DNA of 64,000 nt, taken from Streptomyces yatensis (lineage in GTDB: Bacteria > Actinomycetota > Actinomycetes > Streptomycetales > Streptomycetaceae). The notes under the pieces are model-generated. The model saw only the letters and a program-made list of their open reading frames with translations, had not been told where the DNA came from and searched no databases. How positions within the stretch are numbered: position 1 is the first letter of the stretch; each line of letters begins with the position of its first letter. The translations under genes were made by a program, and so were the position numbers. The stretch spans positions 6,758,001 to 6,822,000 of the forward strand of contig NZ_CP072941.1 of the NCBI RefSeq assembly GCF_018069625.1, read 5' to 3'. This document shows, one piece after another, positions 13,390 to 61,637 of this stretch.

Positions 13390-13422
13390 GCGGGCGCTGA
13401 GCTCCTTACGGTTGCCATGGGG

Positions 13423-13447
13423 CTCCCGTCCCTTCCTGGGGCGGGAG
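13423..13447. terminator. Hairpin terminator after the S53 protease
   Basis: CTCCCGTCCC and GGGGCGGGAG form a 10-bp stem (one G-T pair) with a 5-base loop, 34 bp after the stop codon. No T-run follows, as is usual in Streptomyces. It lies between convergent genes and may serve both. Confidence 0.6.
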
Positions 13448-13470
13448 ACCTGCCATGTCCGCCGGGCTCA

Positions 13471-13516
13471 CTTCCGCGTGGGCGGCGCGCTTACTTCCGC
13501 GTGGGCGGCGCGCTTA
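13471..13516. repeat. 23-bp tandem duplication at the 3' end of the MscS gene
   Basis: Two exact 23-bp copies (13471-13493, 13494-13516) beginning CTTCCGCGTGGG are followed by a diverged third copy from 13517 that is the real last codons of the channel gene. The stop codon (13514-13516) sits at the edge of the second copy, so the gene end has been duplicated outward. Confidence 0.8.
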
Positions 13517-14614
13517 CTTCTGCGCGGGCGGCGGCACCGTCGCGGAGGGGGCGGCGGCTGGACCGGCGGGGGCGGAGAGCGGGCTGGCCGCCGTGGACTG
13601 CGGTGACTCCGGGTTGGCCAGCGCCGACGGCGCCGCCGTGGCGGCCGACGGATCGACGGCCTCGGTCTGCAGCTCCGGGTCCAGGGGCCGGCCGACGAGC
13701 TGAATGCCCGCCTCGTTCAGCGCCTTCTTGATCCGCCAGCGCAGCTCCCGCTCGACACCGAGCGACTTGCCGGGCATGGTCCGCGCCGACACCCGGACGA
13801 TCATCGAGTCCAGATACACCGCGTCGAGCCCCAGGACCTCGATCGGCTCCCACAGCCGCTCGTTCCACGGCTCGTCCTTGGCCATGTCCACACCGACCTG
13901 CGTGATCACGGAGCGGACGTGGTCCAGATCCTCCTCGGCCCGGACCTGGACGTCGAGCGCGGCCGTCGCCCAGCCCTGGCTGAGGTTGCCGATCCGCTTG
14001 ACCTCGCCGTTGCGCACGTACCAGATCTCGCCGTTGTCCCCGCGCAGCTTGGTGACGCGCAGCCCGACCTCGATCACCTCGCCCGAGGCCACCCCGGCGT
14101 CGACCGTGTCGCCGACCCCGTACTGGTCCTCGAGGATCATGAAGACACCGGAGAGGAAGTCGGTGACAAGATTGCGGGCGCCGAAACCGATCGCCACACC
14201 CGCGACCCCGGCACTGGCCAGCAGTGGCGCCAGATTGATCTGCAGCGCGGAGAGGATCATCAGCGCCGCGGTGCCCATGATCATGAACGAGGCGACGGAG
14301 CGCAGCACCGAGCCGATCGCCGCGGAACGCTGGCGCCGTCGCTCCACATTGACCAGCAGCCCGCCGAGCGCGGTGCCGTCGACGGCCTGGGCCGTGCGGT
14401 TCATCCGCTCTATCAGCTTGGTGATCGCCCGCCGGATGACGGACCGGAGCACGAAGGCGATGATCAGGATCAGGGCTATGCGCAGGCCGATGCCGAGCCA
14501 GGTGGACCAGTTCTCCTCCACCCAGCCCGCGGCGTTCGTGGCGCTCCTATGCGCATCGTCGAGAGTCGTGGGACGAGGCGTCGAGTCTGCGGCCAGAGCA
14601 GCGGACCAGAACAC
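13514..14614 (-). CDS. MscS-family mechanosensitive ion channel
   Basis: A 366-residue small-conductance mechanosensitive channel that releases solutes on osmotic downshock. It has an N-terminal hydrophobic stretch, a helix at about 35-60, two more at about 95-140, and the pore helix with the Ala/Gly pattern LLASAGVAGVAIGFGARNLV. The MscS beta domain follows (FMILEDQYGVGDTV). The C-terminal 55 residues are Ala/Pro-rich. The GTG start follows a GAAGGG site; another GTG 33 bp upstream is possible. The last codons are part of a 23-bp tandem repeat that continues past the stop. Confidence 0.9.
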   Translation of the reverse strand: MFWSAALAADSTPRPTTLDDAHRSATNAAGWVEENWSTWLGIGLRIALILIIAFVLRSVIRRAITKLIERMNRTAQAVDGTALGGLLVNVERRRQRSAAIGSVLRSVASFMIMGTAALMILSALQINLAPLLASAGVAGVAIGFGARNLVTDFLSGVFMILEDQYGVGDTVDAGVASGEVIEVGLRVTKLRGDNGEIWYVRNGEVKRIGNLSQGWATAALDVQVRAEEDLDHVRSVITQVGVDMAKDEPWNERLWEPIEVLGLDAVYLDSMIVRVSARTMPGKSLGVERELRWRIKKALNEAGIQLVGRPLDPELQTEAVDPSAATAAPSALANPESPQSTAASPLSAPAGPAAAPSATVPPPAQK

Positions 14615-15065
14615 AGCAGAAACCCTTCGTATGCGACATGCCCGCACGGATCACCCGCGCGCGGAACCTCTCACACAGTAGCCGGGCGCGAGACGCGCCG
14701 TTCCTGTGTTCGAGAGCGCGCGAGCGTGCTCAGGGGGCGCGTATGAGCGGGGCCGGAGGCCGCAATTCCACCTTCTGCCCCGGCCGGGAGGGTGCGGCGA
14801 CACCGGCGGGCAGGGGCCGTGATTCTTGCCACTCCGCAGTGGTGTCCCGCCGCCCGCGCCCCGTGAGCGAGGCCGCCGTAAGGCCGTCGGGACGGTGGTC
14901 ACGCGGCCGCCGCCCCTACCGCGCGCGGGCGGTATACGCGCGGTACGCGGAAATGCCTCTCAACCGTTAACCCGGTGATAGTGGCGTTCCGGCCAGGGTT
15001 CAGGGGAAACTGGGGGAGATCGTCCCGGCGCGAGCCACGCGCCGCCGGCGTACAAGGAGGCCCCC
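14615..15065. other. Intergenic region between divergent mscS-type and HNH genes
   Basis: 451 bp without a credible gene. It must hold promoters for both flanking genes, but I found no convincing -35/-10 pair. One copy of the CCGTAAGG octamer lies at 14876. A GC-rich alternating CG stretch is near 14920-14950. Confidence 0.5.
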
Positions 15066-15602: not shown

Positions 15603-15665
15603 GACCCGGGTCATGTTTTTTGACGACTCGATCCGCCCCTGGCCGGCAGGGCCCAGGGGCCGGAA

Positions 15666-15696: not shown

Positions 15697-15722
15697 CGAA
15701 GCGGAGAGGGCCTGAGCGGGTC

Positions 15723-18700
15723 CTAGTCCTTCTGGGCCGCGTAGACGGCGACCGACCAGAGGGAGTAGCCGAAGCGGGTGGCGCGCTCGACGCCCTGGAC
15801 GCGGATGAAACGCGTGTCCGGGGCGTCCATGCCGATCGACTCCCGCCCGCCCTTCCCATGGGCGACCGTCGCCGCGTCGCGCCAGGTGCGGCCGTCCCCG
15901 GAGACCTGGACGCGGTAGCGGGAGGCGTAGGCGTCCTGCCAGTTCAGGTCGAGGCGGCCGATCCGGGCCGGGCGGGCCAGCTCCAGCTGGAGCCATGCGC
16001 CGTCCTCGGGCCGGGAGGACCAGCGGGTGTCCGCCCTGCCGTCGATCGCGGCGGACGCCGGGAAATCGGCCGTCTCGTCGCCGGACGAGGTCGCCTTCGT
16101 GCCCTCCGCGCGGGCCAGGTCCGGGCCGTCGGCGCCCGGGAACGCCCTTACGGTCAGCATGCGCTCCTCCGAGCCGAAGCGGACCGGGAGTAAGTAGCTG
16201 CCCGCCTTGGTGCCCTGGGCCACCGATATCTCCAAGCGGGCGGTCACCGCGCCGCCGCGCGGGGCCGTCACCCCGCCGGGGGTACGGACGGTGATGCCGC
16301 GCGGTGCCTTCACCGTGAGGTCGCCGTTCACATCGCCGGGGCGGTGGGAGACCAGCTGGGCCTCGACGACGGCCGCGCCGCCGCCTATCTCCGCGTCCGC
16401 CGTCTTGTGGGACAGCGTGAGCCCGGCGTCCGGGGTGTCGCCGAACCAGGGCGTGATCTCGTGCACGGCCGGCGGGGTGGTGCCGGCCGGCCAGCTGAGC
16501 CGGATCGCGTCCGCCAGCAGGTCCTTGTCCCCGTCGGCCGCCCTGACCTGGGTGAAGCCACTGCCCGAGAGCGCACCGAGGCTGCGCCAGCCCTGACCGG
16601 GGACATGCGCCTCCACGGTGCCCGGTGAGGCGTCCTGGACCCGGGTGGTGAGCGCGGAGACGGCGGAGAGCGGACGGCTGCGGCCGAAGCGCACCGTGAC
16701 CGGGCGGCCGGGGGACGCCACCTGCGTGGCCGCCTTACCGTCGGCGGCCGCGTGGTCGTCCTTGCCGGTCCGCAGCCCCTGCTTCGGGGTCCGGTCCACG
16801 CCCGACCAGGCGTCCGCCCGTGTCAGGGCCTTGGCGAGGAAGGGATCGAGAACGCCCTTGCCGACCGTGACCCGGCTGTCCCCGATCTTCTCGCGCAGCG
16901 CCTCCACCGCGAGCCGCGCCTTCCAGGCCGCCGCTCCGTCGCCGCGTGCCTGGGCGGTGAGCATGTCCACGGCCCGGACGCCCGCGTCGCCGTACCGGCC
17001 CAGCTGGTCGAGCCAGGGCCGCACATCGTCGCCCAGTGTGCGGGACAGCCGCTCGGGGGCGTCGCGCATGGTCCGGAAGGCGTCGCGCAGCCGGTCCCCG
17101 GACCGCTCCAGCCGCCCCACGTCGGTACCGGCCAGGGCCGTCCAGAACGCGTCGAGGAGCGGGCGCAGATACGCGGACTCGTCGCCGCCGAGCGTCGAGG
17201 AGGCGTCGTTCCCGGCGAGGGCGCGCAGGGCGGCGCGGGTCTCGGCGTCGGGGCCCGCGAGGTCGTCGATCGCCGCCTGCCAGGACTCCTGGGGGCGGTA
17301 GCCGCGCGGGTTCCAGGCGAAGTCGGCGGCGGTGAACAGCGGGATCCGGGAGGCGGTCGGCTGCTCCATGGCGTTGGCCAGCAGCGCCGCGGACTGGGTG
17401 GCCACGGCCGGATCGCGGCCGGTGTACGGGCCGAGGAAGATCCGGTCCTGCGCCCAGTCGTTGACCGGGTAGTTGTCCATGGTGACCAGGCGGTGGCCGA
17501 ACGCCGATCGGGCACCGGCCAGCTCACCGCCGGTGATGGTCCTGGGCACCACCCCCACCCCGGTCCAGGCGACGTCCACGCTGTCGTCGAGCGCACCGGA
17601 CAGCGCGCGCCGGAACTCGGTGTCGCCGTCCTGGAAGTACTCGGTCGGCATCAGGGACAGCGGGGCCGAGCCGGGGTAGCGGTCGGCCAGGTGGCGGGCG
17701 AGGGCGCCTGCCACCTTGGCCTGTGCGGTGGCGGCGGCCTCCGGGCCGGAGCCGAAGGCGTCGGCGTCGGCGCCGCAGTGCCACTCGCTGTAGCTGACGT
17801 CCTGGAACTGCAGCTGGAAGGAGCGCACCCCGAGCGCCCACATGGCGTCGACCTTGCGGAGCAGCGCCCTGAGGTCCTTCGAGGACGAGAAGCACATCTC
17901 CTGGCCGGGGGAGACCGCCCAGCCGAGGGTGACGTGGTTGGCCCGGGCGCGCGTGGCCAGCTCGCGGAACTCCTCGCGCCGCTCGGCGGGGTAGGGGTCG
18001 CGCCAGCGGGCCTGCCGGTAGGGGTCGTCGCCGGGCGCGTAGAGATAGCGGTTCTGCTTGGTGCGGCCCATGAAGTCGAGCTGGGCCAGCCGGTCGCGGT
18101 GCGACCACGGGGAGCCGTAGAAGCCCTCGGTCGTGCCCCTTACGGCCGTCCCGGGCCAGTCGCGGACGGTCACCCCGGCGACGGCGGAGCCCTTGCCCTC
18201 CCGCTTCACCAGCAGCTGGCGCAGGGTCTGGACGGCGTGGAAGAGACCGTCGGGGCCGACGCCGGACAGCGCGACCGTGGGCTGCCCCCGCACCTGGCCC
18301 GTGGCCAGGAGATAGCCGCCGGACGGGAGGTCGCCGCGCTCGGGCGCGCGCAGGGCGCGCAGCGCGCCGGCCGCGCCCCGGCCGCCCACCTGCACCACCA
18401 GTCCGCGCGTCGGGGCCTTGCCACCGGGTGTGGCCTCGTTGACGGTGCGCACCCCCGCGTCGTGCAGCAGGCCGCGCAGCGCGTCCAGGGCGTACGGATC
18501 GGCGTCGCCGTCGGCTATGAGCGTGGCCTCGTCCCCCAGGGCCAGCTCCGGCCCGTGGGCCCGCAGCGACTGGGGGCGTGGCCATACGGGCGGTATGCCG
18601 TCGCTGCTGTCGCGCTCCGGTGTGGAGGCGCCCGGGGAGCCGTGGTCCACCGGTGCGGCGGCGGCCGCCGGGGCGCCGCCGAGCAGCCCGCCGATGACCG

Positions 18701-19391: not shown

Positions 19392-21586
19392 TGGGCAGAG
19401 CGCGGCTCGCCGAGCTGCACGGTGTCGCCACCTCCTACGAGCCCGCCCCGGGCCGCACCGTCCAGGTGCCCGAGGACACAGTCGTCGCCGTACTGGCCGC
19501 GCTCGGCGTGGACGCCTCGACCCCCGAATCGGTACGCGAAGCGCTGGACCGGCATGAGCGCCGGCAGCGCGACCAGCTGCTGCCCCCCTGCGTGGTGGTG
19601 CGCCCCGGCAAGGCGCCACGCCTGAGCCTGCCCGAAGGCACGGCGCTGCGGGTGCGCCCCGAAGACGGCGCACCGCACACGCGGGGGCGGGCGGCCGCGG
19701 GGACCCGTGAGGCCTATGGCCCCCTTACGGAGCCCCGCACGGACAGCGCTCATACGGGTGGCGTCCTTACGGAGGGCCCCACCGCCGACGGCCTCCTTAC
19801 CGCGCTCACCGCGCTGCCGCCCGGCGCCCACACCCTGCTCGCCGAGGCCCCCGACGGCCGCCGCGCCACCGCCCCCCTCATCGTGGCCCCCGACCGGATG
19901 CCGTTATCCCCGGCCCGCAGCCACGGCTTTCTGGTGCAGCTCTACTCACTGCTCTCCGCACGCTCCTGGGGCATGGGCGACCTCGGCGACCTGGCCGATC
20001 TGGCCGCCTGGTCGGGGCGGGCGCTCGGCGCCGGCTTCGTCCAGATCAACCCGCTGCACGCCGCCGTGCCCGGCACCCCGGGCGCCCCCACCGACCCCTC
20101 GCCGTACCGCCCCTCCTCGCGCCGCTTCCCCGACCCGGTCCATCTGCGGATCGAGGACGTGCCCGAATACGTCCAGCTGCGCGGCCGCGCCCGCGAGCGG
20201 GCCGATCAGCTCCTGGAGGCCGCCACCGCCCTCCGTACGTCCGTCCTGCGCGAGGGCGCCCTCATCGACCGGGACGCCGTCTGGGCCCTCAAGCGCGAGG
20301 CGCTGGAGCTGGTGCGGACCGTCCCGCTCAGCCCCGGCCGCCGCGCCGCCTACTGCGACTTCCTCGCCGAGCACGGCCAGGCCCTGGAGGACCACGCCCT
20401 GTGGTGCGCGCTCGCCGAGACCCACGGCCCCGAATGGCGCACCTGGCCCGGCGGCCTGGCCGATCCGCGCTCGGCCGCCACCGCCCGCGCCCGGACCGAG
20501 CACCTGGACCGCACCGACTTCCACTGCTGGCTCGCCTGGCTCACCGACACCCAGCTCGCCGCCGCCCAGCGCGCCGCGCTCGACGCGGGCATGGGCATCG
20601 GCCTCGTCCACGATCTGGCGGTCGGGGTCCATCCCTCGGGCGCCGACGCCTGGGCGCTCCAGGACGTCTTCGCCGCCGGCATGTCGATCGGCGCGCCCCC
20701 GGACGCCTTCAACTCCCGGGGCCAGGACTGGGGACTGCCGCCATGGCGCCCGGACGCCCTCGCCGCCACCGGCTACGCCCCCTACCGCGATCTGCTGCGC
20801 GGCCTCTTACGGCACGCGGGGGCGCTCCGCATCGACCATGTGATGGGCCTCTTCCGGCTGTGGTGGGTCCCCGAGGGGCGTGCGCCGACCGAGGGCTGTT
20901 ACGTCCGCTACGACGCGGAGGCGATGCTCGGCGTGCTCGCCCTGGAGGCGCACCGGGCCGGGACGGTCGTCATAGGGGAGGACCTGGGGACCGTCGAGCC
21001 CGGCGTGCGGGAGGAGCTGGAGCGGCGTGGGGTGCTGGGGACGTCGGTGATGTGGTTCGAGCGCCACTACGACGGTGCCGCCGCAGCGGGCGCCGCCCGG
21101 CCGCTGTCCCCCGCGGAGTGGCGCGCGGACTGCCTGGCCACCGTGACGACCCACGATCTGCCGAGCACGGCCGCCCGCCTCACCGGCGACCATGTCGAAC
21201 TCCGGCACCGGCTGGGCCTGCTGACCCGTCCCCTGGCCGAGGAGCGCGCGGCGGACGCGGTCGAGGTCGCCGAGTGGCTGGCGCTGCTGGGGCGGCTCGG
21301 GCTGCTGCCGGAGGGGCCGGGCGACGAGGAGGGGGCCGTCAAGGCGGTCCACCGCTTCCTGCTGCGCACCCCGGCGAGGATGGTCGGCGTATGGCTGCCG
21401 GATGCCGTGGGGGACCGCAGACCGCAGAATCTGCCGGGCACCTGGGATCAGTATCCGAACTGGCGGCTGCCGATCGCTGACGCCGAGGGGCGCCCAATGT
21501 CCCTGGAGGAGCTGGTCGCCTCACCCCGGCTGCGCGAGCTGATGGCCGAGGTGGCCCGCCTCGCGCCTCGTGAACCCGCGCCGTAG
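19391..21586 (+). CDS. malQ: 4-alpha-glucanotransferase (amylomaltase, GH77)
   Basis: A 731-residue GH77 enzyme that transfers glucan chains between maltodextrins in the cytoplasm. The GH77 barrel starts near residue 175. The nucleophile Asp482 is in LRIDHVMGLF, the acid/base Glu530 in GEDLGTVEP and the third acid Asp589 in TTHDLPS. Length is normal for actinobacterial MalQ with its 170-residue N-terminal extension. Codons 172 and 473 are TTA, the leucine codon read only by the bldA tRNA, so expression is probably limited to later growth. Residues around 112-135 are encoded by DNA holding two CCTTACGG octamers read as CTT-ACG. The ATG overlaps the stop of the small upstream gene. Confidence 0.93.
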   Translation: MGRARLAELHGVATSYEPAPGRTVQVPEDTVVAVLAALGVDASTPESVREALDRHERRQRDQLLPPCVVVRPGKAPRLSLPEGTALRVRPEDGAPHTRGRAAAGTREAYGPLTEPRTDSAHTGGVLTEGPTADGLLTALTALPPGAHTLLAEAPDGRRATAPLIVAPDRMPLSPARSHGFLVQLYSLLSARSWGMGDLGDLADLAAWSGRALGAGFVQINPLHAAVPGTPGAPTDPSPYRPSSRRFPDPVHLRIEDVPEYVQLRGRARERADQLLEAATALRTSVLREGALIDRDAVWALKREALELVRTVPLSPGRRAAYCDFLAEHGQALEDHALWCALAETHGPEWRTWPGGLADPRSAATARARTEHLDRTDFHCWLAWLTDTQLAAAQRAALDAGMGIGLVHDLAVGVHPSGADAWALQDVFAAGMSIGAPPDAFNSRGQDWGLPPWRPDALAATGYAPYRDLLRGLLRHAGALRIDHVMGLFRLWWVPEGRAPTEGCYVRYDAEAMLGVLALEAHRAGTVVIGEDLGTVEPGVREELERRGVLGTSVMWFERHYDGAAAAGAARPLSPAEWRADCLATVTTHDLPSTAARLTGDHVELRHRLGLLTRPLAEERAADAVEVAEWLALLGRLGLLPEGPGDEEGAVKAVHRFLLRTPARMVGVWLPDAVGDRRPQNLPGTWDQYPNWRLPIADAEGRPMSLEELVASPRLRELMAEVARLAPREPAP

Positions 21587-21756: not shown

Positions 21757-23514
21757 ATGGCCCGACCCCTGGGCGGAACGCCCGGCACCCACCGACCACG
21801 CGGACGGCGGCGAGCACTGCTCGCGCTCCGCGCCCTCGCCCTGGCCGCCCTCGCGGCCGCCGCCGTCCCTCCCGCCCCCGCGCAGGCCGCGTCCGCCAAG
21901 GCCGCCCCCGCCCAGGCCGCGCCGACCGGCTGCCAGGGGCCCATCACCCCCGCCCCGCAGCAGACCGTCGAGGACTGCGACACCCCCGCCCGCGTCATCG
22001 ACAAGGCCGTCCACACCGTCCCCACCCCCGGGCAGCGGGCCTGGCAGAAGCGCGAGATCACCGCCTTCACCCACTTCGGCATGAACACCATGACCGGCCG
22101 CCAGTGGGGCTCCGGGGCCGAGGACGAGAAGCTCTTCGACCCGCCCGAGCTCGACATGGACCAGTGGATGCGGGCGTACAAGGCCGGCGGCGCCCAGCAG
22201 GTCATGCTCACCGCCAAGCACCACGACGGCTTCGTGCTCTACCCGAGCCGCTACACGGACCACGACGTCGAGGCCAGCCCCTGGTGGACGAACGGCCCCG
22301 GCGGCAGGAATCCCGACGGCGATGTCCTGGGCGCCTACGTCAAGGCCGCCCGTAAGGCGGGACTCAAGGTCGGCGTCTATCTCTCGCCCGCCGACGGGGC
22401 CGAGCTGCCGCACGCCTGGCACGCCCAGTGGGTCGAGAAGATCCGCGAGAAGCAACAGAACGGCGAGGAGCTGTCGCTGCCCGAGCGCATGGCCCTGGAG
22501 GACGGCGACCGGGCGCCCGCCGGACAGGGCCGCTACGGCGACGGCAGCAAGCCCACCGAGCGCACCATCCCCACCCTCGTCCCCGGTGACGACCGGGCGG
22601 ACGAGGTCGCCTCCGGCGCGCTGCCCAGCTTCCGCTTCACCGCCGACGACTACGACGCGTACTACCTCAACCAGATCTACGAGATCCTGACGCAGTACGG
22701 CCCCATCGACGAGTTCTGGCTGGACGGCGCCAACCCCTGGGGCGGTGCGGGCGTCACCCAGAACTACGACGTCAGGAACTGGTTCGAGCTGATCCGCGCG
22801 CTCTCCCCGGACGCCGTGGTCTTCCAGGGCGCGCAGGGCGTGCGCTGGGTGGGCAACGAGGACGGCATCGCCCGGGAGACCGAATGGTCGGTGACCCCGT
22901 CCGCCGTCGACCCCTGGACGGTCGTCGGCGGCGGGCTGCCCAATGACTCCACCGACGCCGACATCGGCTCGCGCGCGAAGCTGACCGCGCCGGGCGTGCG
23001 CCATCTGCAGTGGTATCCGGCCGAGGCCGATGTCTCGATCCGCCCCGGCTGGTTCCACGACCCCGCGGAGCGGCCCAAGACCCCCGGCCAGCTGATGTCG
23101 CTGTACGAGCGCAGCGTGGGCCGCAACGCCTCGCTGCTGCTCAATGTCCCGCCCGCGAAGAACGGCCGGATCGACGACACCGACATCGCCTCCCTTACGG
23201 CCTTCGGCACAGCCGTAAGGACGACATACGGCACCGGGGCGCGGCCGGCCACCGGCCATCCGGTGACCTTCGACCGGGTACGGCTCGGCGAGGACATCCG
23301 CCGGGGACAGCGGGTGGAGGAGTTCACCGTGCAGGCCCGGGTGGCGGGGACATGGCGGGACATCGCCTCCGGTACGACCATCGGGGCCCGGCGCATCCTT
23401 CCGCTGGCCGCGCCCGTCACCGCCGATGGGCTGCGGGTACGGGTCCTCGCCGCCCGCGCCGCGCCACGGCTGCTGCCGCCCACCGTCCACCTCGGCGCGG
23501 CGGGCCGCCGCTGA
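21757..23514 (+). CDS. Secreted alpha-L-fucosidase (GH29)
   Basis: A 585-residue exported enzyme. The Arg-rich start RPRGRRRALLALRALAL and following hydrophobic stretch form a signal ending near residue 45. The GH29 catalytic barrel (about 95-430) shows FTHFGMNTMTG, AKHHDGFVLY and the nucleophile region IDEFWLDGANPWGG with Asp323. A C-terminal beta domain follows. It would release fucose from external glycans. A GGAGGGGA site precedes the chosen ATG; an upstream in-frame extension lacks signal character. The C-terminus contains two octamer copies 20 bp apart, read as rare CTT-ACG and GTA-AGG. It is 170 bp downstream of malQ on the same strand. Confidence 0.9.
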   Translation: MARPLGGTPGTHRPRGRRRALLALRALALAALAAAAVPPAPAQAASAKAAPAQAAPTGCQGPITPAPQQTVEDCDTPARVIDKAVHTVPTPGQRAWQKREITAFTHFGMNTMTGRQWGSGAEDEKLFDPPELDMDQWMRAYKAGGAQQVMLTAKHHDGFVLYPSRYTDHDVEASPWWTNGPGGRNPDGDVLGAYVKAARKAGLKVGVYLSPADGAELPHAWHAQWVEKIREKQQNGEELSLPERMALEDGDRAPAGQGRYGDGSKPTERTIPTLVPGDDRADEVASGALPSFRFTADDYDAYYLNQIYEILTQYGPIDEFWLDGANPWGGAGVTQNYDVRNWFELIRALSPDAVVFQGAQGVRWVGNEDGIARETEWSVTPSAVDPWTVVGGGLPNDSTDADIGSRAKLTAPGVRHLQWYPAEADVSIRPGWFHDPAERPKTPGQLMSLYERSVGRNASLLLNVPPAKNGRIDDTDIASLTAFGTAVRTTYGTGARPATGHPVTFDRVRLGEDIRRGQRVEEFTVQARVAGTWRDIASGTTIGARRILPLAAPVTADGLRVRVLAARAAPRLLPPTVHLGAAGRR

Positions 23515-42274: not shown

Positions 42275-42296
42275 GGGAATTCAGCAGAGCGCGCCC

Positions 42297-45245: not shown

Positions 45246-45258
45246 GGCGGCGGCTGTA

Positions 45259-46760: not shown

Positions 46761-47903
46761 ATGACTGGCGGCGTGGACACTCCGTGGGCCCGGATGCGCA
46801 GAGCTCTGCACCGGGCTCGCACAGGCGTGCGCAAAGCCGGAGTGGACTATTTCCGCGGCGAGGGCTCCGACCGACTCGCCCTGACGGCGCTGCTCCTCGG
46901 CATCCCCGCCATCGCCGGAGGCACCATCGCCCAGCCCGACTGGTGCTCCCCGTCCGCCCTCGTCCTGCCCATCGTCGCGGGCGGCCTGCTGCTGCGCCCC
47001 GCCAGCCTGCTCGCCCTCTACGCGGCGGCCGCCACGGCCCTGATCGTGGAGTCCGCCGTGCTCGGCCCGTACACCGAGGAGGACGCCTCCTCCCGGGTCA
47101 CCCCCGGCACCATCCTGGTCGTCGCCGCCGTCGGCTTCTTCGGGCTGCTGATCGCCCAGTTCCGCAGCCGCGTCGGGGTGCCCTGGCGGCGCGGCGGCAC
47201 CATGCTCTTCGACCTGCGCGAGCGCATCCGCGTCCAGAGCAAGCTGCCCGGTCTGCCGCGCGGCTGGCACCGCGAGATGGCGCTGCGGCCGGCCGGCGGA
47301 CAGTCCTTCTCCGGTGACTTCGTCGTCGCCGCCCGCACCGGCGGCGGCCGCACCCTCGAGGTCGTCCTCACCGATGTCTCCGGCAAGGGCATGGACGCCG
47401 CCTCCCGTGCCCTGCTGCTCTCCGGCGCCTTCGGCGGCCTCCTCGGCTCCCTGCCCCCGCACGGCTTCCTCCCGGCGGCCAACGGCTATCTCCTGCGTCA
47501 GGACTGGGACGAGGGCTTCGCGACCTCCATCCATCTCGTCCTCGACCTCGACAGCGGCGACTTCGAGCTCTTCTCCGCCGGACATCTGCCCGCGCTCCAG
47601 CTGAGCGCGGGCACCGGCAAGTGGGAGGAGAAGTCCGCCGACGGCCCGCTGCTGGGCGTCTACGACGGCGCCCAGTTCGACCCCACCAAGGGCACCCTGC
47701 GCCCCGGCGACGTCCTGATGCTCTTCACCGACGGCCTCGTCGAGACCGCCGACCGGGACATCAGCGAAGGCATCGACCGCCTTACGGGCGAGGCGGACCG
47801 CTATGTGGGCTCCGGCTTCCACGGCGCGGCCTGGCATCTGATCGAGACGGTCGCGAAGGACGTCAACGACGACCGGGCCCTGCTGCTGATCTGCCGCCAG
47901 TAG
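46761..47903 (+). CDS. Membrane-anchored PP2C/SpoIIE-family serine phosphatase
   Basis: A 380-residue protein with a basic head, three or four membrane helices at about 40-130 and a cytoplasmic SpoIIE-type PP2C domain at about 165-380. Phosphatase motifs are visible: SGDFVVAA, VLTDVSGKGMDAA, SAGHLPALQL, LLGVYDG, DVLMLFTDGLVE and DDRALLLICR, including the metal-binding Asp residues. Such proteins dephosphorylate anti-sigma-factor antagonists. No partner is adjacent. The ATG follows AGGGTC; a TACTAT -10-like hexamer lies at about 46682. Confidence 0.9.
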   Translation: MTGGVDTPWARMRRALHRARTGVRKAGVDYFRGEGSDRLALTALLLGIPAIAGGTIAQPDWCSPSALVLPIVAGGLLLRPASLLALYAAAATALIVESAVLGPYTEEDASSRVTPGTILVVAAVGFFGLLIAQFRSRVGVPWRRGGTMLFDLRERIRVQSKLPGLPRGWHREMALRPAGGQSFSGDFVVAARTGGGRTLEVVLTDVSGKGMDAASRALLLSGAFGGLLGSLPPHGFLPAANGYLLRQDWDEGFATSIHLVLDLDSGDFELFSAGHLPALQLSAGTGKWEEKSADGPLLGVYDGAQFDPTKGTLRPGDVLMLFTDGLVETADRDISEGIDRLTGEADRYVGSGFHGAAWHLIETVAKDVNDDRALLLICRQ

Positions 47904-48050
47904 CCGCACCCTTCCCGCTCACTGCCCGGTGCCGCCTTACGGCGGGGGCTAACCCCACCCCGGATACGCCGGTCGCCGTCATGGCTGCCAAGGGGCCGCG
48001 ATCCGTACGTTCGAGGGGAATCGGGCGAACTCCTCGGAAGGGTCACCACC

Positions 48051-48869: not shown

Positions 48870-51394
48870 GGCCGCTCACCAACGGACTGGCCCGCGCCGC
48901 CGTCCGTTTCAAGCCGTCCGCCTTCGCGGGCACCTTCATCGCCCTGGCCGTGGCCGCGGCGATCGTGTCCGCGTGCGGCATCCTGCTGGAGACCGGGATC
49001 CGGGCCTCCGTACCGCCGCAGCGCTATGCGGGCGCCCCGGTGGTGATCGCCGCCGACCAGCGGGTGCACTACGTCATCGGCCACGGCGACGGCCGCTCGG
49101 ACGAATCCGAGCAGGTCCCCGATCGCGCCCGGCTCGACGCCTCCCTGGTGGCCACCGCCGCCCGCGCTCCCGGGGCCGCGGCCGCGGCCCCGGATGTGAC
49201 CTTCCCGCTCCGCACCGCCCACGGCGCGCTCACCGGCCATGGCTGGGGCGCTGCGCCGTCCACGGGGGTGGCGCTCGCCTCGGGCGCGGCGCCCCGGGAC
49301 GGCGAGGCGGTCCTCAGCCCCGGGGCCGCCCGTGCGGCGGGTACCGGCGTCGGCGGCCGGATCACGGTGACGGCGCCGGACGGCCGCCACACGTTCCGGG
49401 TCTCCGGCGTGACCCGTAAGGCGGGCGGCACCGATGGCGACGGCCTTACGGCGTGGTTCACCGACCACCGGGCCCGGGCGCTGAGCGGCCACCCCACCAC
49501 CGTGGACGCCGTCCTCGTCCGCCCTCGCCCCGGCACCACCGCCGACCGGCTGGCCGGCCAGCTGGAGCGGGCCGTGAAGGGCGCGGCGCACTCCCCGCGC
49601 GTGCACACCGGCGGCGGCCGCGGCGCCATCGAGGAGCCCGCGCTCGCGAACGCCAGGGAGACGCTCATGGGGCTCGGCGGCTCCTTCGGCGGCATCGCCA
49701 CCGCCGTCGCCGTCTTCACCACCGCGGGCACCGTCGCCCTCTCGGTTGGCCAGCGCGGCCGCGAGGTGGCCCTGCTGCGGGCGATCGGCGCGACCCCGCG
49801 CCAGATCCGCCGCTCCGTCGCGGCCGAGGCGCTGCTGGTCGCCCCGCTCGCGGGCGCGGCCGGTCTGCTGCCCGGCTACGCGCTCGCCCACTGGTGGTTC
49901 GGACAGCTCAAGGAGAAGGGCGCCATCCCCGGGCCCGTGGAGCTCTCCGTCTCCTGGATCCCGCTGGTCACCGCCGTCGGCGCGGGCCTCCTCACCTCGC
50001 TCCTTGCGGGCCTGATGGCGGCCCGCCGCCCGGCGCGGATCCCGCCGGGGCGGGCGCTGGGCGAGGCGGCCGTCGAACGGCTGCGGCCCGGTGTGATCCG
50101 TACGGTCCTCGGCGTCGCGGCCCTGGTCGGCGGCATCGTCATGACCGGCGTCGCCGCCTCCGCCTCGGGCGACGACGCGGCCAACGCCGCCCTCGGGGTC
50201 GTGATGCTGTTCATGCTCGCCGTGGCCCTGCTCGGCCCGGTCATCGCCCGGCTGTGCGCCTGGCTGATCGGTCTGCCGCTGCGCGCCGGACCGGCGTCGG
50301 CCCATCTGGCGTCGGCCAACAGCCGGGCCAACGCCCGCCGACTGGCCTCGGCGATCACCCCGATCGTGCTGGCCATGGCCTTCTCCTCGACGCTCGTGTT
50401 CATGCACACCAGCGAGGACCACGCGGGCGACCGCCAGCGGCGGGCGGGCATCGTCGCCGACCAGGTGATCTCCGCCCCCGACGGGCTCCCCTCCGGTACC
50501 GCGGCCCGCGCCGGTTCGGTACGGGGCGTGGCCGCGTCGGTGGGGCTGCTGCGCACGGGGGTGCTGGTCCCGGTGGGCTCGGGCGACGGCCGCTGGCTGC
50601 GGACCGCGTCGGCACAGGGCGTCTCGGGGAGCGGCCGCGACCTGGCGGCCGTACAGGACCTGGACGTCCGTAAGGGGCGCCTGGACGCCCTGGGGCCGGG
50701 CCGGGTGGCGGTCGACGCGCTCCTGGCGAAGGCGGCCCACGCCCGGATCGGCCACCGGCTCGCCCTGCACCTCCCGGACGGTACGAGGATCTCGCCCACC
50801 GTGGTCGCGATCTACGGGCGCGGGCTGGGGATCGCCGAGCTCACCCTGCCCCGTACGGCGCTGGCCGGCCATGTGACGTCGTCGTTCGACAGCGATGTGC
50901 TGGTGCGGGATGACGAAGATGCCGACCGTAAGGCCGTCGCGGCGGCGCTCGGCCGACTCGGCGAGCGGGTCACCGACCGGGACGGCTACGCGGCGGCCCA
51001 GGACGAGGACCGGAAGCTGAACGCCTGGGCCAACACCGTCATGGCGGCCGTCCTCGGCGGCTTCGCCGCCGTCGCCGCCGTCAACACCCTGGTGATGACG
51101 GTGCTGGACCGCCGCCGCGAACTGGGCACCCTGCGGCTGATCGGCACCACCCGGCGGCAGGTGCTCGGGATGGTGCGCTGGGAGGCGCTGCTGGTGGCCA
51201 CGGCGGGCATCGCCCTGGGCACGGCGATCGCCCTGGCCACGCTGGTGCCGATGATGCGCGGCCTGACCGGCGAGGACCCGTATGTGCCGCCGCTCACCTA
51301 CGCGGGCTTCGCGGGGGCCGCCGTGGCGCTCGGCCTCGCGGCGACGGCACTCCCGGCCCGCGCGGCGCTGCGCCGCACCACGCCGAAGCCGTGA
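48866..51394 (+). CDS. FtsX-like ABC transporter permease
   Basis: An 842-residue permease with two FtsX domains. The N-terminal helix (20-42) is followed by an extracellular region to about 270, then helices near 280, 325, 370 and 410-470. A second extracellular region to about 715 is followed by three C-terminal helices with the QxGxxxALxxAxG-like pattern REVALLRAIGATPRQIRRS mirrored by RELGTLRLIGTTRRQVLGM. It partners the ATPase upstream, probably exporting a lipid, lipoprotein or peptide. GTG start overlapping. Contains four CCTTACGG/CCGTAAGG copies. Confidence 0.92.
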   Translation: MRPLTNGLARAAVRFKPSAFAGTFIALAVAAAIVSACGILLETGIRASVPPQRYAGAPVVIAADQRVHYVIGHGDGRSDESEQVPDRARLDASLVATAARAPGAAAAAPDVTFPLRTAHGALTGHGWGAAPSTGVALASGAAPRDGEAVLSPGAARAAGTGVGGRITVTAPDGRHTFRVSGVTRKAGGTDGDGLTAWFTDHRARALSGHPTTVDAVLVRPRPGTTADRLAGQLERAVKGAAHSPRVHTGGGRGAIEEPALANARETLMGLGGSFGGIATAVAVFTTAGTVALSVGQRGREVALLRAIGATPRQIRRSVAAEALLVAPLAGAAGLLPGYALAHWWFGQLKEKGAIPGPVELSVSWIPLVTAVGAGLLTSLLAGLMAARRPARIPPGRALGEAAVERLRPGVIRTVLGVAALVGGIVMTGVAASASGDDAANAALGVVMLFMLAVALLGPVIARLCAWLIGLPLRAGPASAHLASANSRANARRLASAITPIVLAMAFSSTLVFMHTSEDHAGDRQRRAGIVADQVISAPDGLPSGTAARAGSVRGVAASVGLLRTGVLVPVGSGDGRWLRTASAQGVSGSGRDLAAVQDLDVRKGRLDALGPGRVAVDALLAKAAHARIGHRLALHLPDGTRISPTVVAIYGRGLGIAELTLPRTALAGHVTSSFDSDVLVRDDEDADRKAVAAALGRLGERVTDRDGYAAAQDEDRKLNAWANTVMAAVLGGFAAVAAVNTLVMTVLDRRRELGTLRLIGTTRRQVLGMVRWEALLVATAGIALGTAIALATLVPMMRGLTGEDPYVPPLTYAGFAGAAVALGLAATALPARAALRRTTPKP

Positions 51395-51458: not shown

Positions 51459-51479
51459 CGCGTCGTGCCCGTCGGCGCG

Positions 51480-52661
51480 CTAGGCGGCCGTCGTCGTACG
51501 GCTGCGGGCCTGTTCGGCGGGATCCTTACGGAAGGCCCAGGCCATCTTCGGCTCCATGGCGAAGCGGAAGGCGCGCTGGACGGGAGGCGTGCACAGCACG
51601 GTGACCACAGTGGCGGCGATGACCGTGACCGCGATCTCCCCCAGCGGCTTGTGCAGCCACTCGTTGTCGAACCAGCCCCAGAAGCGGGAGCCCTTGGCGA
51701 GGAAGCCGTGCAGCAGGTAGCCGTACAGCGTTCCGGCGCCCAGCACCGTGAACCACATGTGCCGCCGCGGCACCCAGGCGAAGAAACAGCTCACCAGCAC
51801 GACCGAGCAGCCGAAGAGGGCGAGCGTCATCACCGGGCCGGTCCACGGCGGCGCGCCCAGCTCCTGGACGCTGTCGCGGTGGTAGAACCACACCGAGGTC
51901 ATCCGCGGCGCCGCCCAGTAGGCGAAGACGAGGGCGCACGCGAAGATCGGCACGGACGCGATCCGCACGGAGCGGCGGCGGATCATCTGGAAGTGCTCGG
52001 GCTTCATGCACAGGCCGAGGACGAAGAACGGCAGGAACTGCAGCAGCCGCTGCATGTCCAGGTCGTCGCCGATGTCGGGCGAGACCGCCGCGAGGGTGGC
52101 GATCGCGAGCGAGAGCGGGATCGGCCAGCGCACCAGCTTCCAGAGCGGAGTGGACAGCCGCCATACGAACAGCGCGACCAGGAACCAGGTGAGGTACCAG
52201 GGGTCGAGCAGGCTGAAGTCGTACGTCGGGTCGTCGTCCGCCCAGCGCTTGAACAGCGTGTACGCGACCTCGAAGATCACGTAGGGCACCGCTACGCCGG
52301 TGACCAGCCGCTTGAGCCGGTCCGGCCGCATGTCGAAGCTGCGCGAGAAGTAGCCGGAGATCAGGATGAAGGCCGGCATGTGGAAGGTGTACACGACCAT
52401 GTACAGCGCTTCCGCGGTGCGGCTGGAATCGGTCAGCGGCTCCCAGGAGTGGGCCATCGCGACCAGCACGATCGCGAGGTACTTCGCGTTGTCGAAGAAC
52501 GCGTCCCGCTGTTTGGGTTTCTGTCCGGCGGGGGCGCTGGGGGCGGGCGGAGTGGACGCCTGCTGCCCGGGTTCTTCGGCCCGTGGCGTAGGGGGAGTGG
52601 GCGCCGCCTCCTGGGGGAGGGGGGTCCGCTGATAACCGTGCGGGCGCAGGGAGTTGGTCAC
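51480..52661 (-). CDS. Acyltransferase-3 family membrane protein
   Basis: A 393-residue inner-membrane O-acyltransferase of the OafA/fucose-acetylase type. A Pro/Ala/Gln-rich cytoplasmic head of about 60 residues is followed by RDAFFDNAKYLAIVLVAMAHSWEPL, containing the family's first helix and its conserved His, and about ten helices. It would move acyl groups to a cell-surface or secreted glycan. The GTG was chosen because GGGAGGG precedes it; a longer frame upstream reads low-quality sequence. One octamer copy lies near the C-terminus. Confidence 0.88.
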   Translation of the reverse strand: MTNSLRPHGYQRTPLPQEAAPTPPTPRAEEPGQQASTPPAPSAPAGQKPKQRDAFFDNAKYLAIVLVAMAHSWEPLTDSSRTAEALYMVVYTFHMPAFILISGYFSRSFDMRPDRLKRLVTGVAVPYVIFEVAYTLFKRWADDDPTYDFSLLDPWYLTWFLVALFVWRLSTPLWKLVRWPIPLSLAIATLAAVSPDIGDDLDMQRLLQFLPFFVLGLCMKPEHFQMIRRRSVRIASVPIFACALVFAYWAAPRMTSVWFYHRDSVQELGAPPWTGPVMTLALFGCSVVLVSCFFAWVPRRHMWFTVLGAGTLYGYLLHGFLAKGSRFWGWFDNEWLHKPLGEIAVTVIAATVVTVLCTPPVQRAFRFAMEPKMAWAFRKDPAEQARSRTTTAA

Positions 52662-54086: not shown

Positions 54087-55529
54087 GTGAAGAGCGCCGT
54101 GGAGAACCTGAACCCGACCCGGGTTCGGCTCACTGTCGAGGTGCCCTTCGAGGAGCTCAAGCCCAGCCTCGACGCGGCGTACAAGAAGATCAACCAGCAG
54201 GTCACGGTGCCTGGGTTCCGTAAGGGCAAGATCCCGGCCCGCATCATCGACCAGCGGTTCGGTCGTGGCGCCGTGCTGGAAGAGGCCGTCAACGAGGCGC
54301 TCCCGAAGTTCTACACCGACGCGGTCAACGAGGGTGAGCTGAACCCGCTCGGCCAGCCCGAGGTCGACATCACCGAGCTCAAGGACAACGAGCTCCTGAC
54401 CTTCACCGCCGAGGTCGACATCCGCCCGGCGATCGAGATCCCGGACTACTCCGGCATCGAGGTCACCGTCGACGCCGTCGAGGTCTCGGACGAGGACCTC
54501 GACAAGTCCGTCGAGCAGCTGCGCGAGCGGTTCGCCACCACCAGCCCGGTGGAGCGCGCCGCGGCCGAGGGCGACATCGTCGTGATCGACCTGGAGGCCA
54601 AGGTCGAGGGCGAGGTCCTGGAGGACGGTGTCGCCACCGGCGTCACCTACACCATCGGCTCGGGCGAGCTGCTGGAGGGCATCGACGAGGCCGTGACCGG
54701 CCTGGAGGCGGGTGGCGAGGCCACCTTCACCTCCGAGCTCAAGGGCGGCTCCGCCCAGGGCAAGGAGGCCGAGGTCTCGGTCAAGGTCTCCGAGGTCAAG
54801 GCCCGTGAGCTGCCGGAGCTCGACGACGACTTCGCCCAGCTGGCCAGCGAGTTCGACACCCTCGAGGAGCTGCGCGCGGACAGCCGCAAGCGCCTGGAGC
54901 GGTCGAAGAAGTTCGAGCAGGCCACCCAGGCCCAGGAGAAGGTGCTGGACGCCCTCCTGGAGCTGGTCGAGGTGCCGATCCCCGAGAAGCTCCTCGAGGA
55001 AGAGATCAACACCCGTAAGCACAACCTCGAGCACCACCAGCTCGGGCAGATGGGCCTGAACCTCGAGTCGTACCTGCAGATGCAGGACAAGACCGCCGAG
55101 GAGTTCGACGCCGAGCTCAAGGAGCAGGCCGAGAAGGGCATCCGGACCCAGTTCGTCCTCGACGAGCTGGTCAACAAGGAGCAGCTGTCCGTCGGCCAGG
55201 AGGAGCTCACCGAGCACCTCATGCGCCGTGCGCAGTCCTCCGGCATGAGCCCGGACCAGTTCGCCCAGGCCGTCGTCGAGGGCGGCCAGGTGCCGATGCT
55301 CGTCGGCGAGGTCGCCCGCGGCAAGGCGCTGGCCGTCGTGGTCGAGGCCGCCAAGGTCGTCGACGACAAGGGCGAGACCGTCGACCTGGACGACGAGGAG
55401 GACGAGACCGGCGAGACGGTCGAGGCCACCTCCGAGGCCGTCGAGGCGCCCGCCGAGGCCGAGGCCGCGACCGAGGCCGCCGAGGAGCCCGCGGAGTCCC
55501 AGGAGAAGCAGGACAAGGCCGAGAGCTGA
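54087..55529 (+). CDS. tig: Trigger factor (ribosome-bound chaperone and prolyl isomerase)
   Basis: A 480-residue protein: ribosome-binding N-domain with the signature GFRKGKIP (residues 46-53), FKBP-type isomerase domain at about 155-245, and the helical chaperone C-domain to about 425. An acidic Glu/Ala-rich tail of about 45 residues is typical of actinobacteria. It shields nascent chains at the ribosome exit. GTG with AAGGAGA. Upstream of clpP1P2-clpX, the conserved proteostasis cluster. Confidence 0.97.
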
Positions 55530-59559: not shown

Positions 59560-59616
59560 GGCTGTGGGGGTCCCCTCCGGATCGGCTGTGGGCTGTGAAC
59601 TCAGTGGCCCGCTGGG

Positions 59617-60648
59617 CTACTTGATCTCCACGCGCGCGTCGTTGCGGACCTTCGCGGTGATCTCACCGGCCTCGTCGAGCGACATGCCGTTGCCGGACAG
59701 CGCCGCGGCCGCGTCGGAGACGATCACATAGCCCACCGTGCTGTTGTCACCCCACATGCAGATCGGGATCGTGAACCCCTTGCTGGGTATGCCGCTGGAG
59801 CTCGAGCCCTCGCCCGGGGTGAACTTGGTGTTCTGGCACTTCATCACGGCGTTCTCGAAGCCGCTGGGCGACACCGACTCCGGGCTGCCCACGAGCTCGG
59901 CCTTCATCCCGCTGCCGGTCGAGGAGTCCTTCTCGGCCTCCTGGGCGATCTTCGCGAAGGCGCCGTCGACGACCGCCTCCGGGTCCTTCACCTCGCCCCA
60001 GACCCCGTTGAGCTGGAGCTTCTTCACGCTCATGCCCTCGCCGGACTTGTACTCCGCGCTCACCGGCTCGGGGTTGCTGACGCCGAACTTCTCGAAGTCG
60101 TCCGCGTCCGAGGAGGTGAGCCCGCCGCCGGAGCCGGAGGACTCCTTGGTGTAGTCGCCGGCCACCGTCTGGGGGGTGGTGAGCTTGTACCGCTTGCCGT
60201 CGTCGGCGACCTTACCGCCGCCACCGCCGCCGCTGTCGTCCCCGCCCTGGACCACCAGGACGCCGCCGACGACCGCGGCCACCACGACCACCGCGCCGAT
60301 CGCGAGCCACAGACCCTTCTTCTTGCCGCCGCCCTGGCCCGGGTCCGGCTGGTACGGGCCCGGCATGCCCGGCTGACCGTACGGCTGCTGCTGGCCGTAC
60401 GGGTTCGGGGGCTGTCCGTAGGGGCCCGGCTGCCCCTGCGGCTGCCCGGGGTAGCCGTAGCCCGGCTGCGGCGGCTGCGGCGGCTGTCCGTAGGGACCCG
60501 GCTGCCCCTGCGGCTGCTGCGGGTAGCCGTAGCCGGGCTGGCCGGCCGCACCACCCTGTCCGTAGGGACCCGGCTGCCCGGGCTGCTGGCCGTAGGGACC
60601 CGGCTGCCCGGGCTGCTGGCCGTAGGGGCCCGGCTGGTTGTAGCTCAT
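59617..60648 (-). CDS. PGQY-rich single-span membrane protein, paralogue 2
   Basis: A 343-residue member of the triplet with the longest low-complexity head: about 110 residues of PYGQQPGQPG-type repeats, a membrane helix at about 115-140, then an extracytoplasmic domain. That domain matches paralogue 1: YKLTTPQTVAGDYT, LNGVWGEVKDPEAVVDGAF, MKCQNTKFTPG and ICMWGDNSTVGYV, and the C-terminus VRNDARVEIK. ATG with GAGGGATAC. Confidence 0.87.
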   Translation of the reverse strand: MSYNQPGPYGQQPGQPGPYGQQPGQPGPYGQGGAAGQPGYGYPQQPQGQPGPYGQPPQPPQPGYGYPGQPQGQPGPYGQPPNPYGQQQPYGQPGMPGPYQPDPGQGGGKKKGLWLAIGAVVVVAAVVGGVLVVQGGDDSGGGGGGKVADDGKRYKLTTPQTVAGDYTKESSGSGGGLTSSDADDFEKFGVSNPEPVSAEYKSGEGMSVKKLQLNGVWGEVKDPEAVVDGAFAKIAQEAEKDSSTGSGMKAELVGSPESVSPSGFENAVMKCQNTKFTPGEGSSSSGIPSKGFTIPICMWGDNSTVGYVIVSDAAAALSGNGMSLDEAGEITAKVRNDARVEIK

Positions 60649-60701
60649 CTGTATCCCTCGTTGGTGAAACCGCTGTTGTGTTGCCGTTCGCCGGTCGCGG
60701 G

Positions 60702-61637
60702 CTAGCCGTCGATCTCGACGCGCGCGTCCCTGCGCACCTTGGCCGTGAGGCCGGCGGCGTCCTCCAGGGACATACCACCGCCGAGCACCGCGGCCGCCGG
60801 GTCCGCCATGACTGTGACGCCCAGGGTGTCCTTGTCGCCCCAGACGCACGCGGGGGCCTCCATGGATCCCTGGTCCGAGGTGAACTTCATGGACTGGCAC
60901 TTCAGGACGTCCCCGTCGAAGCCGTCCGGGGAGAACGTCCGGGGGCTGCCCTTGGCCTGCGCCGTGCCGTTGTCCTGCAGCGTCTTGACGATGACCGCCA
61001 GTGCGAGGTCCGCGCCCCGCGCCGGGTCGGTGACATCGCCCCAGACGCCGGTGAACTTCAGCATCTCCTTACCGGAGGTCTGGTAGTCGGCCGCCACCAG
61101 ATGCGGGTCCTTGACGACCGGCACCTGCTGGAGGTCCTTGCGGCCCGCCGCGGACAGATCGCTGTCGTCCGTGCCCGAGCCCTGGCGCTCGTAGTCCGCG
61201 GCCACGGTCTTGGGCGTGGTCAGCTTGTACGGGCCGCCGCTGCCGCCGCCGAACAGCAGGAACGCCCCCACGCCCAGCGCCCCCACGACCACCACCGCGC
61301 CGACCGCGAGAGCCACCTTGCGGCCCTTACCGCGGCCACCGGCGGCCGGTCCCTGGGGCGGCGGTACCTGGGGCCCGCCGTAGTAGCCCGGGCCCTGCTG
61401 GGGCACGGGGCCCGGCTGGGGAGGCTGCGGCGGCTGCCCGTAAGGATGCGCGGGCTGAGGATGTCCATAGCCGCCGGACCCGCCGTAGGGGTTCGGCTGA
61501 CCGTAGCCGCCCTGCGGCTGCCGGCCGTAGCCCGGTGTCTGCGCATATGGATTGGGCACCGGCGGCTGGCCGGCGCCGTACGCCCCTGGCTGGCCCCCAT
61601 AGGGGCCGGGCTGCGGCGGCGGCTGCTGATGGCTCAT
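60702..61637 (-). CDS. PGQY-rich single-span membrane protein, paralogue 1
   Basis: A 311-residue first gene of the tandem triplet: head of about 100 residues rich in Pro, Gly, Gln, Tyr, a helix at about 108-130 (KVALAVGAVVVVGALGVGAFL), then YKLTTPKTVAADYE, FTGVWGDVTDP, LKCQSMKFTSDQ and APACVWGDKDTLGVTV, ending VRRDARVEIDG. The two cysteines flanking the C-terminal part are shared by all three and may form a disulfide. ATG with AAGGAGAGG. It is divergent from valS. Contains one CCGTAAGG octamer in the head. Confidence 0.87.
   Translation of the reverse strand: MSHQQPPPQPGPYGGQPGAYGAGQPPVPNPYAQTPGYGRQPQGGYGQPNPYGGSGGYGHPQPAHPYGQPPQPPQPGPVPQQGPGYYGGPQVPPPQGPAAGGRGKGRKVALAVGAVVVVGALGVGAFLLFGGGSGGPYKLTTPKTVAADYERQGSGTDDSDLSAAGRKDLQQVPVVKDPHLVAADYQTSGKEMLKFTGVWGDVTDPARGADLALAVIVKTLQDNGTAQAKGSPRTFSPDGFDGDVLKCQSMKFTSDQGSMEAPACVWGDKDTLGVTVMADPAAAVLGGGMSLEDAAGLTAKVRRDARVEIDG

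Follow-up and report, generated by a model that had tools for sequence, protein, structure and literature searches.

The octamer CCTTACGG (read on the other strand as CCGTAAGG) is a real, strong, clade-limited iterated word whose close copies obey short-range spacing rules, and it came to light in a 64-kb stretch of DNA, hereafter the window, at G000:C1:6758001-6822000, G000 being the genome, a single contig of 10.36 Mb, that holds it. The window contains 22 exact copies, 12 on the plus strand and 10 on the minus strand, whereas dinucleotide shuffles of the same letters gave a mean of 0.86 and a maximum of 5 (none of 100 shuffles reached 22), and among all 8-mers of the window this one scored highest, with 22 copies against 1.22 under an order-2 Markov model. 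Nine copies lie in 13404-23220 and eleven in 42295-51531, with singles at 54218 and 61438. An original prediction, made from the letters of this stretch, had counted the same 22 (12 forward, 10 reverse) in two clusters, and all were recovered where it had located them; its expectation of about two copies was too generous, although the large excess that it claimed stands. The two clusters are also real but not peculiar to the window, since copies are over-dispersed along the core of the chromosome (variance/mean 1.5-3.5 in 10-kb bins of four core blocks).

Across the whole G000 genome there are 856 copies (439 + 417), against 258 (133 + 125) for a control octamer with the letters reversed, so that a check with scrambled octamers, suggested along with the prediction, found the control about 3.3 times rarer. 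Within a genus sample of 199 genomes, G000 included, five carried 856-1040 copies and the remaining 194, unsorted as to clade membership, 247 at most. Relatives were gathered through the FtsX-like protein encoded at 48866-51394 of the window, which is 92-96% identical in Streptomyces niphimycinicus, S. endocoffeicus, S. violaceusniger, S. samsunensis and S. rugosispiralis, whose genomes hold 857, 1023, 864, 826 and 985 copies, respectively (S. niphimycinicus and G150 are identical in four counts and probably one genome). It is 67-74% identical in the near outgroups SAJ15, S. sparsogenes, S. zagrosensis and S. varsoviensis, which hold 101, 113, 197 and 125 copies, each below its own reversed control. 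Orthologous loci of 13-22.5 kb from five relatives carried 3.9-5.3 copies per 10 kb, and any copy at all was present in 10 of 47 Streptomyces outgroup loci, 16 copies altogether (the Shinella locus L061 was excluded from this set, and L001-L008 are missing from one locus tabulation). Among the genomes examined, the excess is thus restricted to one Streptomyces clade, S. violaceusniger and its kin. G000 probably belongs to it, judging from alignment identities of up to 97 percent; G165 was placed there by an alignment of 366 kb with 96.6 percent identity, and G055 and G096 by octamer count and shared arrays. Highly iterated palindrome 1 (HIP1), Chi and the DNA uptake sequences (DUS) are known iterated octamers, and the acquisition of such a word by a genome is hard to see when it is old. 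The present word abounds in a single clade whose nearest relatives stay at control level, so that comparison can be used to study its origin, its protein and the selective force.

The enrichment acts at the level of DNA. A codon-aware count, in which synonymous codons were shuffled within genes (40 shuffles), gave 175 coding copies in 1.66 Mb of G000 core against 24.0 +/- 4.3 expected, a ratio of 7.3, and the same shuffle applied to 693 genes of the 47 outgroup loci gave no excess (12 against 13.6 expected). Ratios in the G000 core were 1.02 and 1.00 for CCTTGCGG and CCTCACGG and ranged from 0.40 to 3.81 for other test words. The window alone has 16 coding copies against 1.3 expected, with a maximum of 5 in 200 within-gene shuffles of this kind. 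In non-coding DNA the G000 core had 26.9 copies per 100 kb and the outgroups 1.6. In a 2.02-Mb sample of G000, 281 copies divided into 188 coding, 86 intergenic and 7 at edges, the coding ones being spread evenly along genes and falling into five classes of frame and orientation (CGT-AAG 98, CTT-ACG 50, GTA-AGG 24, CCT-TAC 13 and one further class with 3). This use of several reading frames and of non-coding DNA bears out the earlier suggestion of selection or insertion at the DNA level rather than protein need, and the codon-aware count proposed with it turned out about seven times above expectation. As for insertion, relatives align without gaps at sites kept in the clade, and most sites show substitution in place rather than an 8-bp insertion.

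Neighbouring octamers are phased with the DNA helix over short distances, with spacings of 20, 30-31 and 40-42 bp, a property newly found here. The 54 consecutive pairs at 8-260 bp in the 2.02-Mb sample showed a period of 10.35 bp (power 16.6), whereas six control octamers, with 0-12 pairs in the same sample, showed no 10.35-bp peak. Pairs at 14-44 bp, one per locus, were scored as in phase when within 2.3 bp of 20.7, 31.05 or 41.4 bp, for which 42% is expected. Same-orientation pairs were in phase in 27 of 32 cases in G000, 30 of 41 in G165, 30 of 37 in G096 and 34 of 45 in G055, and windows shifted by half a turn captured 4 of the 32 from G000. Pairs in opposite orientation, for which simple tandem duplication is no explanation, were scored in G150 as well (one of two pairs on its contig C725 being dropped) and were in phase in 37 of 38 cases (G000 6/6, G165 7/7, G096 11/12, G055 5/5, G150 8/8). 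Because the genomes share orthologous loci, these pairs were also grouped roughly by spacer, with one pair per array and the further pairs of a dense array excluded; 16 of the 17 groups, corresponding to about 17 distinct loci, were in phase (p 9e-6).

The octamer core, CC-T-TA-C-GG, is a palindrome but for positions 3 and 6 and is not its own complement. Around 234 lone copies, weak mirrored preferences were detected, for a pyrimidine at -6, G at -5 and C at -3 on one side and for G at +10, C at +12 and a purine at +13 on the other, giving an extended weak dyad G-n-C-nn-CCTTACGG-nn-G-n-C that is present at non-coding copies too. As codon phase accounts for part of these preferences, the flanks were analyzed again outside genes, where 65 copies, one per cluster, retained G at -5 (0.55) and C at +12 (0.58) with a folded chi2 of 30.0 (3 degrees of freedom), and smaller values of 15.4 at -6/+13 and 14.0 at -3/+10. 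No conserved sequence extends past the octamer in the lone copies apart from these weak preferences, as would mark a mobile or duplicated element, tandem arrays being local exceptions. The simplest reading of the dyad would be a dimer over a putative site of about 20 bp.

Binding is favoured, by the helical phasing and the dyad flanks together, among the three options of protein binding, recombination and modification that the prediction had left side by side. We see roughly an even chance that the octamers are putative sites of a clade-specific, dimeric and cooperative architectural protein. CCTTACGG would be the core of a ~20-bp site for a sequence-specific protein that acts on it in the S. 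violaceusniger clade but in none of the outgroups examined. Such a protein would probably be dimeric, given the pseudo-palindromic core and the flanking dyad (G-n-C ... G-n-C), and its cooperative binding to adjacent sites would take place on one face of the helix, which would put close pairs and arrays at whole numbers of turns. Its most likely role would be in chromosome architecture, as a nucleoid-associated protein or a topological or segregation factor, and not in promoter control. With a small benefit per site, copies would accumulate by point substitution in long-resident DNA and would still be scarce in recently acquired DNA. A fuller history, in which a DNA-binding protein of the clade ancestor arose or changed its specificity and by weak selection wrote about a thousand octamers, in phased groups, into long-resident DNA, rare codons included, is more tentative and falls somewhat short of an even chance. 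If true, the clade would possess a private chromosome-organising code that also dates acquired DNA; the helical phasing gives a physical means of approaching the binder, and DNA that was acquired recently, biosynthetic clusters for instance, may be recognisable by its lack of copies.

Several points, drawn from the phasing, from the search for a binder and from comparison between species, weigh against this proposal. The phase windows were fixed after the G000 sample, and orthologous loci are common to the compared genomes. Many same-orientation pairs are tandem duplications with a spacing set by unit length; after removal of look-alike pairs in the 2-Mb sample the p-value was 0.0004, rising to 0.021 when the cut was stricter. 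Neither the non-duplicate coding pairs of this sample (n = 15, p 0.15) nor its opposite-orientation pairs up to 300 bp (n = 16, p 0.32) were significantly phased, so that the phasing is confined to short range. Tandem arrays, perfect or nearly so, with units of 14, 17 and 26 bp are out of phase (26 bp in G096; 14 bp in G165 and G055). No binding protein was found, DNA-binding families not having been searched. Some rare one-base neighbours of the octamer are also raised relative to the outgroups (several words, small counts), as decay products would be.

Turnover was followed in the 366-kb alignment of G165 with G000 (4.4-4.8 Mb). From the G000 side, 59 of the 64 alignable copies are identical in G165 (8 further copies could not be aligned), and retention exceeds that of flank-matched random octamers both for coding copies (41/43 against 34.0 expected, p 0.003) and for non-coding copies (18/21 against 11.9, p 0.005). 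Viewed from G165, retention is 57 of 78 aligned sites, which is about neutral and tempers the strong purifying selection first drawn from G000; moreover, the hexamer CTTACG is kept in 59 of 64 cases inside the octamer and in 23 of 28 outside it, a non-significant difference (p 0.17). Retention between species is thus just modestly above neutral, and its asymmetry argues that any selection keeping single sites is weak. Another octamer occupies 20 of the 78 aligned G165 sites in G000, one base away in 17 of the 20 (CCTTGCGG at 4, CCTCACGG at 3, CCGTACGG at 2, and others). Since single sites turn over while clade totals stay similar, gains would seem to be favoured, by selection or by drive.

A clade-specific mutational or repair bias alone, with no binding function, would agree with the near-neutral retention on the G165 side, with the predominance of one-base differences and with the raised rare neighbours. 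However, the common one-base neighbours stay near outgroup level (0.6-1.1x), outgroups often depart by several bases at the sites that the clade has kept, and the dyad flanks and the phased spacing of opposite-orientation pairs, which holds both by locus and by spacer group, also weigh against such a bias, which we regard as quite improbable as the sole cause.

Along the chromosome, the core blocks of G000 hold 260 copies in 1.664 Mb, window included, whereas ten 20-kb samples of the arms and outer regions hold 3 in 200 kb, and 38 of 100 listed G000 positions fall in the first 2.1 Mb, or 1.8 per 100 kb. A 143-kb stretch at 6.571-6.714 Mb, which by eye resembles modular polyketide synthase (PKS) genes, carries 3 copies (Poisson p 0.00017). 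Because this copy-poor cluster sits within the core, scarcity seems to track the presumed recent arrival of DNA rather than place alone. The dnaA gene lies at 5.235 Mb, and strand counts (+/-) of 32/40 to its left and of 26/46, 31/31 and 29/25 to its right show no consistent polarity.

These distributions bear on the main rival, unlikely in our judgement, under which the octamer is a self-recognition or transfer word of the kind of DUS, Chi or the sites of TraB, aiding uptake, transfer or recombination and spreading by biased recombination. Its size, its clade limit and its scarcity in the arms and in the core PKS-like cluster parallel DUS, single sites differ frequently between species, as in the 20 of 78 above, and the establishment of DUS, of which dialects are known (PMC3630211, PMC2397512), is linked to recombination in the available part of PMC2397512. 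On the other hand, a transfer word leaves the helical phasing unexplained, and the densest array, the one tested, had no match among plasmid or phage collections. Chi and the FtsK-orienting polar sequences (KOPS) are iterated chromosomal octamers like this one but are strand-polar along the replichores, and the present octamer lacks consistent polarity; natural competence with uptake words is, to our knowledge, not known in Streptomyces.

With respect to genes, divergent intergenic DNA has no excess (12 copies per 99.9 kb, against 188 per 1633 kb of coding DNA), which is not the pattern of promoter operators. Three of the four arrays viewed lie in convergent spacers, one of them, at G000 5383475-5383771, with nine exact copies plus degraded ones, and raw density is 34 sites per 71 kb in convergent against 12 per 100 kb in divergent spacers. 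These figures would fit a role at the ends of genes, as a terminator working in both directions or a roadblock to transcription. Yet the excess of convergent spacers over controls loses significance once each cluster is counted a single time (odds ratio 2.26, p 0.08), a few arrays being responsible for the preference. In addition, about two thirds of the sampled copies (188/281) lie within genes and evenly so, and a genome has just 3-7 hairpin-type +- pairs at 14-44 bp; we consider this explanation very improbable.

Other arrays and neighbourhoods were seen in passing. A 26-bp tandem array at G096:C6:4951401-4951590 is out of phase and an alternating 20/22-bp array at G055:C3:7582314-7582487 is in phase, and such young and old arrays may reveal how phasing arises. 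Next to an array of four octamers lies the end of a gene (G000:C1:6726617-6727552) that by eye encodes a LysR-type regulator. Three-copy arrays also occur in viral contigs (27 and 2), but from the stretches shown they look like unrelated tandem repeats and were set aside. Near dnaA, G000:C1 ~5363916-5364260 is similar to Streptomyces plasmids, which make up 28 of its 29 matching records (98% along 152 bp with an NBC_01635 plasmid and a weaker likeness to NC_001387.1), and is perhaps an integrated plasmid remnant.

Modification offers a further explanation, in which an orphan methyltransferase, acting through modification-dependent repair or epigenetic control, makes and keeps the word as a HIP1-like site. 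HIP1 (GCGATCGC) and alternate HIPs of cyanobacteria are iterated palindromes tied to cognate methyltransferases, according to the available part of PMC4390886, and the one-base distance at 17 of the 20 sites substituted between G165 and G000 would suit such a process. The octamer, however, is not palindromic, and helical phasing is not expected of a modification site. Methyltransferase Pfam families were compared between six motif-bearing genomes (G000, G055, G096, G165, G225 and G227) and six outgroup genomes. PF02384 had no match in G000 and G165, PF01555 none in G096 and PF00145 none in G225 (whose completeness is not stated), so that each family is missing from at least one of the six motif-bearing genomes and none of these three is clade-wide, other methyltransferase families not having been searched. 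Modification is weakened by these results, within the three families covered, and appears improbable.

The copies of the window are listed in Table 1. Gene calls were made with a GC-frame predictor built for the analysis, and clade-member counts refer to the genomes that cover each site, with the window included where said. Pfam agrees with the gene names given earlier (GH84, malQ, GH29, GNAT acetyltransferase, SpoIIE-type phosphatase and FtsX), and the two overlaps with stop codons that had been claimed were seen. About ten coding copies had been described as read CTT-ACG or GTA-AGG; 16 copies lie wholly within gene calls (CTT-ACG 6, CGT-AAG 6, GTA-AGG 4), and CGT-AAG had been left out, though no other reading is as frequent among the 188 coding copies of the wider sample, of which it accounts for 98.

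Table 1. Exact copies of the octamer in the 64-kb window (positions of the window).
Position	Strand	Location	Reading	Neighbouring copy	Clade members with the copy	Gene name from
13404..13411	+	intergenic, between convergent gene calls				
14876..14883	-	intergenic, between divergent gene calls				
16146..16153	+	GH84 gene	GTA-AGG			Pfam
18138..18145	+	GH84 gene	GTA-AGG			Pfam
19723..19730	+	malQ	CTT-ACG	next copy 42 bp (four turns) away		Pfam
19765..19772	+	malQ	CTT-ACG			Pfam
22350..22357	-	GH29 gene	CGT-AAG			Pfam
23193..23200	+	GH29 gene	CTT-ACG	20-bp opposite-orientation pair with 23213		
23213..23220	-	GH29 gene	GTA-AGG	partner of 23193		
42295..42302	+	stop codon of gene 42297-43667 (permease-like by eye)			absent from 4/4 covering relatives	
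45240..45247	-	stop codon of gene 44436-45245			absent from 4/4 covering relatives	
45456..45463	-	GNAT acetyltransferase gene	CTT-ACG		5/5 covering, window included	Pfam
45751..45758	+	GNAT acetyltransferase gene	GTA-AGG		4/5 covering	
47780..47787	+	SpoIIE-type phosphatase gene	CTT-ACG		absent from 4/4 covering relatives	Pfam
47935..47942	+	intergenic				
49414..49421	-	FtsX-like permease gene	CGT-AAG		6/6, window included	Pfam
49444..49451	+	FtsX-like permease gene	CTT-ACG	30-bp opposite-orientation pair with 49414	6/6	
50668..50675	-	FtsX-like permease gene	CGT-AAG		4/6	
50926..50933	-	FtsX-like permease gene	CGT-AAG		6/6	
51524..51531	+	acyltransferase gene	CGT-AAG		5/6	
54218..54225	-	trigger-factor gene	CGT-AAG		4/6, and outgroup SAJ15	
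61438..61445	-	outside gene calls				

Elsewhere in the window, Rfam matches were obtained for the ASdes small RNA at 24510-24577 (-) and for the sodF small RNA at 41568-41656 (+), just past a gene call ending at 41552, and genes for tRNA-Gly and tRNA-Pro lie at 53.6-53.9 kb. The octamer-free stretch between the clusters includes two long genes with alike protein starts, 27366-29936 and 34867-37485 (-), which may be aminopeptidase-like.

Other words were examined and rejected as parts or equivalents of the motif. The variant CCTTACCG is raised over the outgroups (37 against 10), but codon-aware shuffles explain most of this (58 observed against 38.8), and 18 of its 27 copies are retained. The palindrome CCGTACGG exceeds codon expectation in the clade (3.8x) and in the outgroups (2.0x), and its 12 close pairs show no 10.35-bp peak. 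The clade-enriched words CCAGATAG, CCATCTGC and CGATATCG fall mostly in one codon phase and were read as codon-choice effects; CCAGATAG and CCATCTGC are raised relative to the outgroups in the arms too (G000 blocks, for example 4401973), which points to a shift in codon choice or context. A search for equivalent words in 45 of the 47 outgroup loci (L044 and L054, under 12 kb, were skipped) and 60 kb of G012 was underpowered at 12-22 kb per locus, the clade loci themselves reaching z values of 7.2-9.6 and the octamer falling outside the top four in L009. The top outgroup words included a tandem repeat (L034), a repeat-protein word (L014) and a codon-phase word (G012), none of them retained as an equivalent; GTACGGAC was the top word in L016, and z was near or above 8 also in loci such as L013, L016, L041, L035 and L026.

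No report of CCTTACGG, in the letters of either strand, was found among the papers listed from the openly licensed literature of PubMed Central; the nearest known kinds are DUS, the HIPs, sps, Gbn and CdbA. Like the neisserial DUS, it is a short iterated word of related species, and just as DUS are scarce in recently acquired DNA, the octamer is scarce in DNA thought to be recently acquired; unlike DUS, it has dyad flanks and is phased at short range, which suggests that double-stranded DNA is bound from one face. With the HIPs, as presented in the available part of PMC4390886, it shares the character of a highly iterated, lineage-dependent octamer whose extensions keep the dyad, as well as strong genome-wide over-representation. 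The HIPs described there are palindromes with cognate methyltransferases, whereas the octamer is a broken palindrome with phased neighbours and with no clade-wide methyltransferase in the three families compared. SpdA2 of Streptomyces plasmids is likewise a DNA-binding protein of the genus with a short palindromic target, sps (CGTCACGTGACG), which, in the portion of PMC4170104 available, is rare on chromosomes, unlike the octamer. There is also a likeness to the targets of nucleoid-associated proteins that recognise a short word at many chromosomal places, such as the GATC-binding Gbn of Streptomyces (available part of PMC9239103) and CdbA of Myxococcus (available part of PMC7156744); for these the protein is known. 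The octamer has many sites in both coding and non-coding DNA, as would be expected of a word bound by a nucleoid-associated protein.

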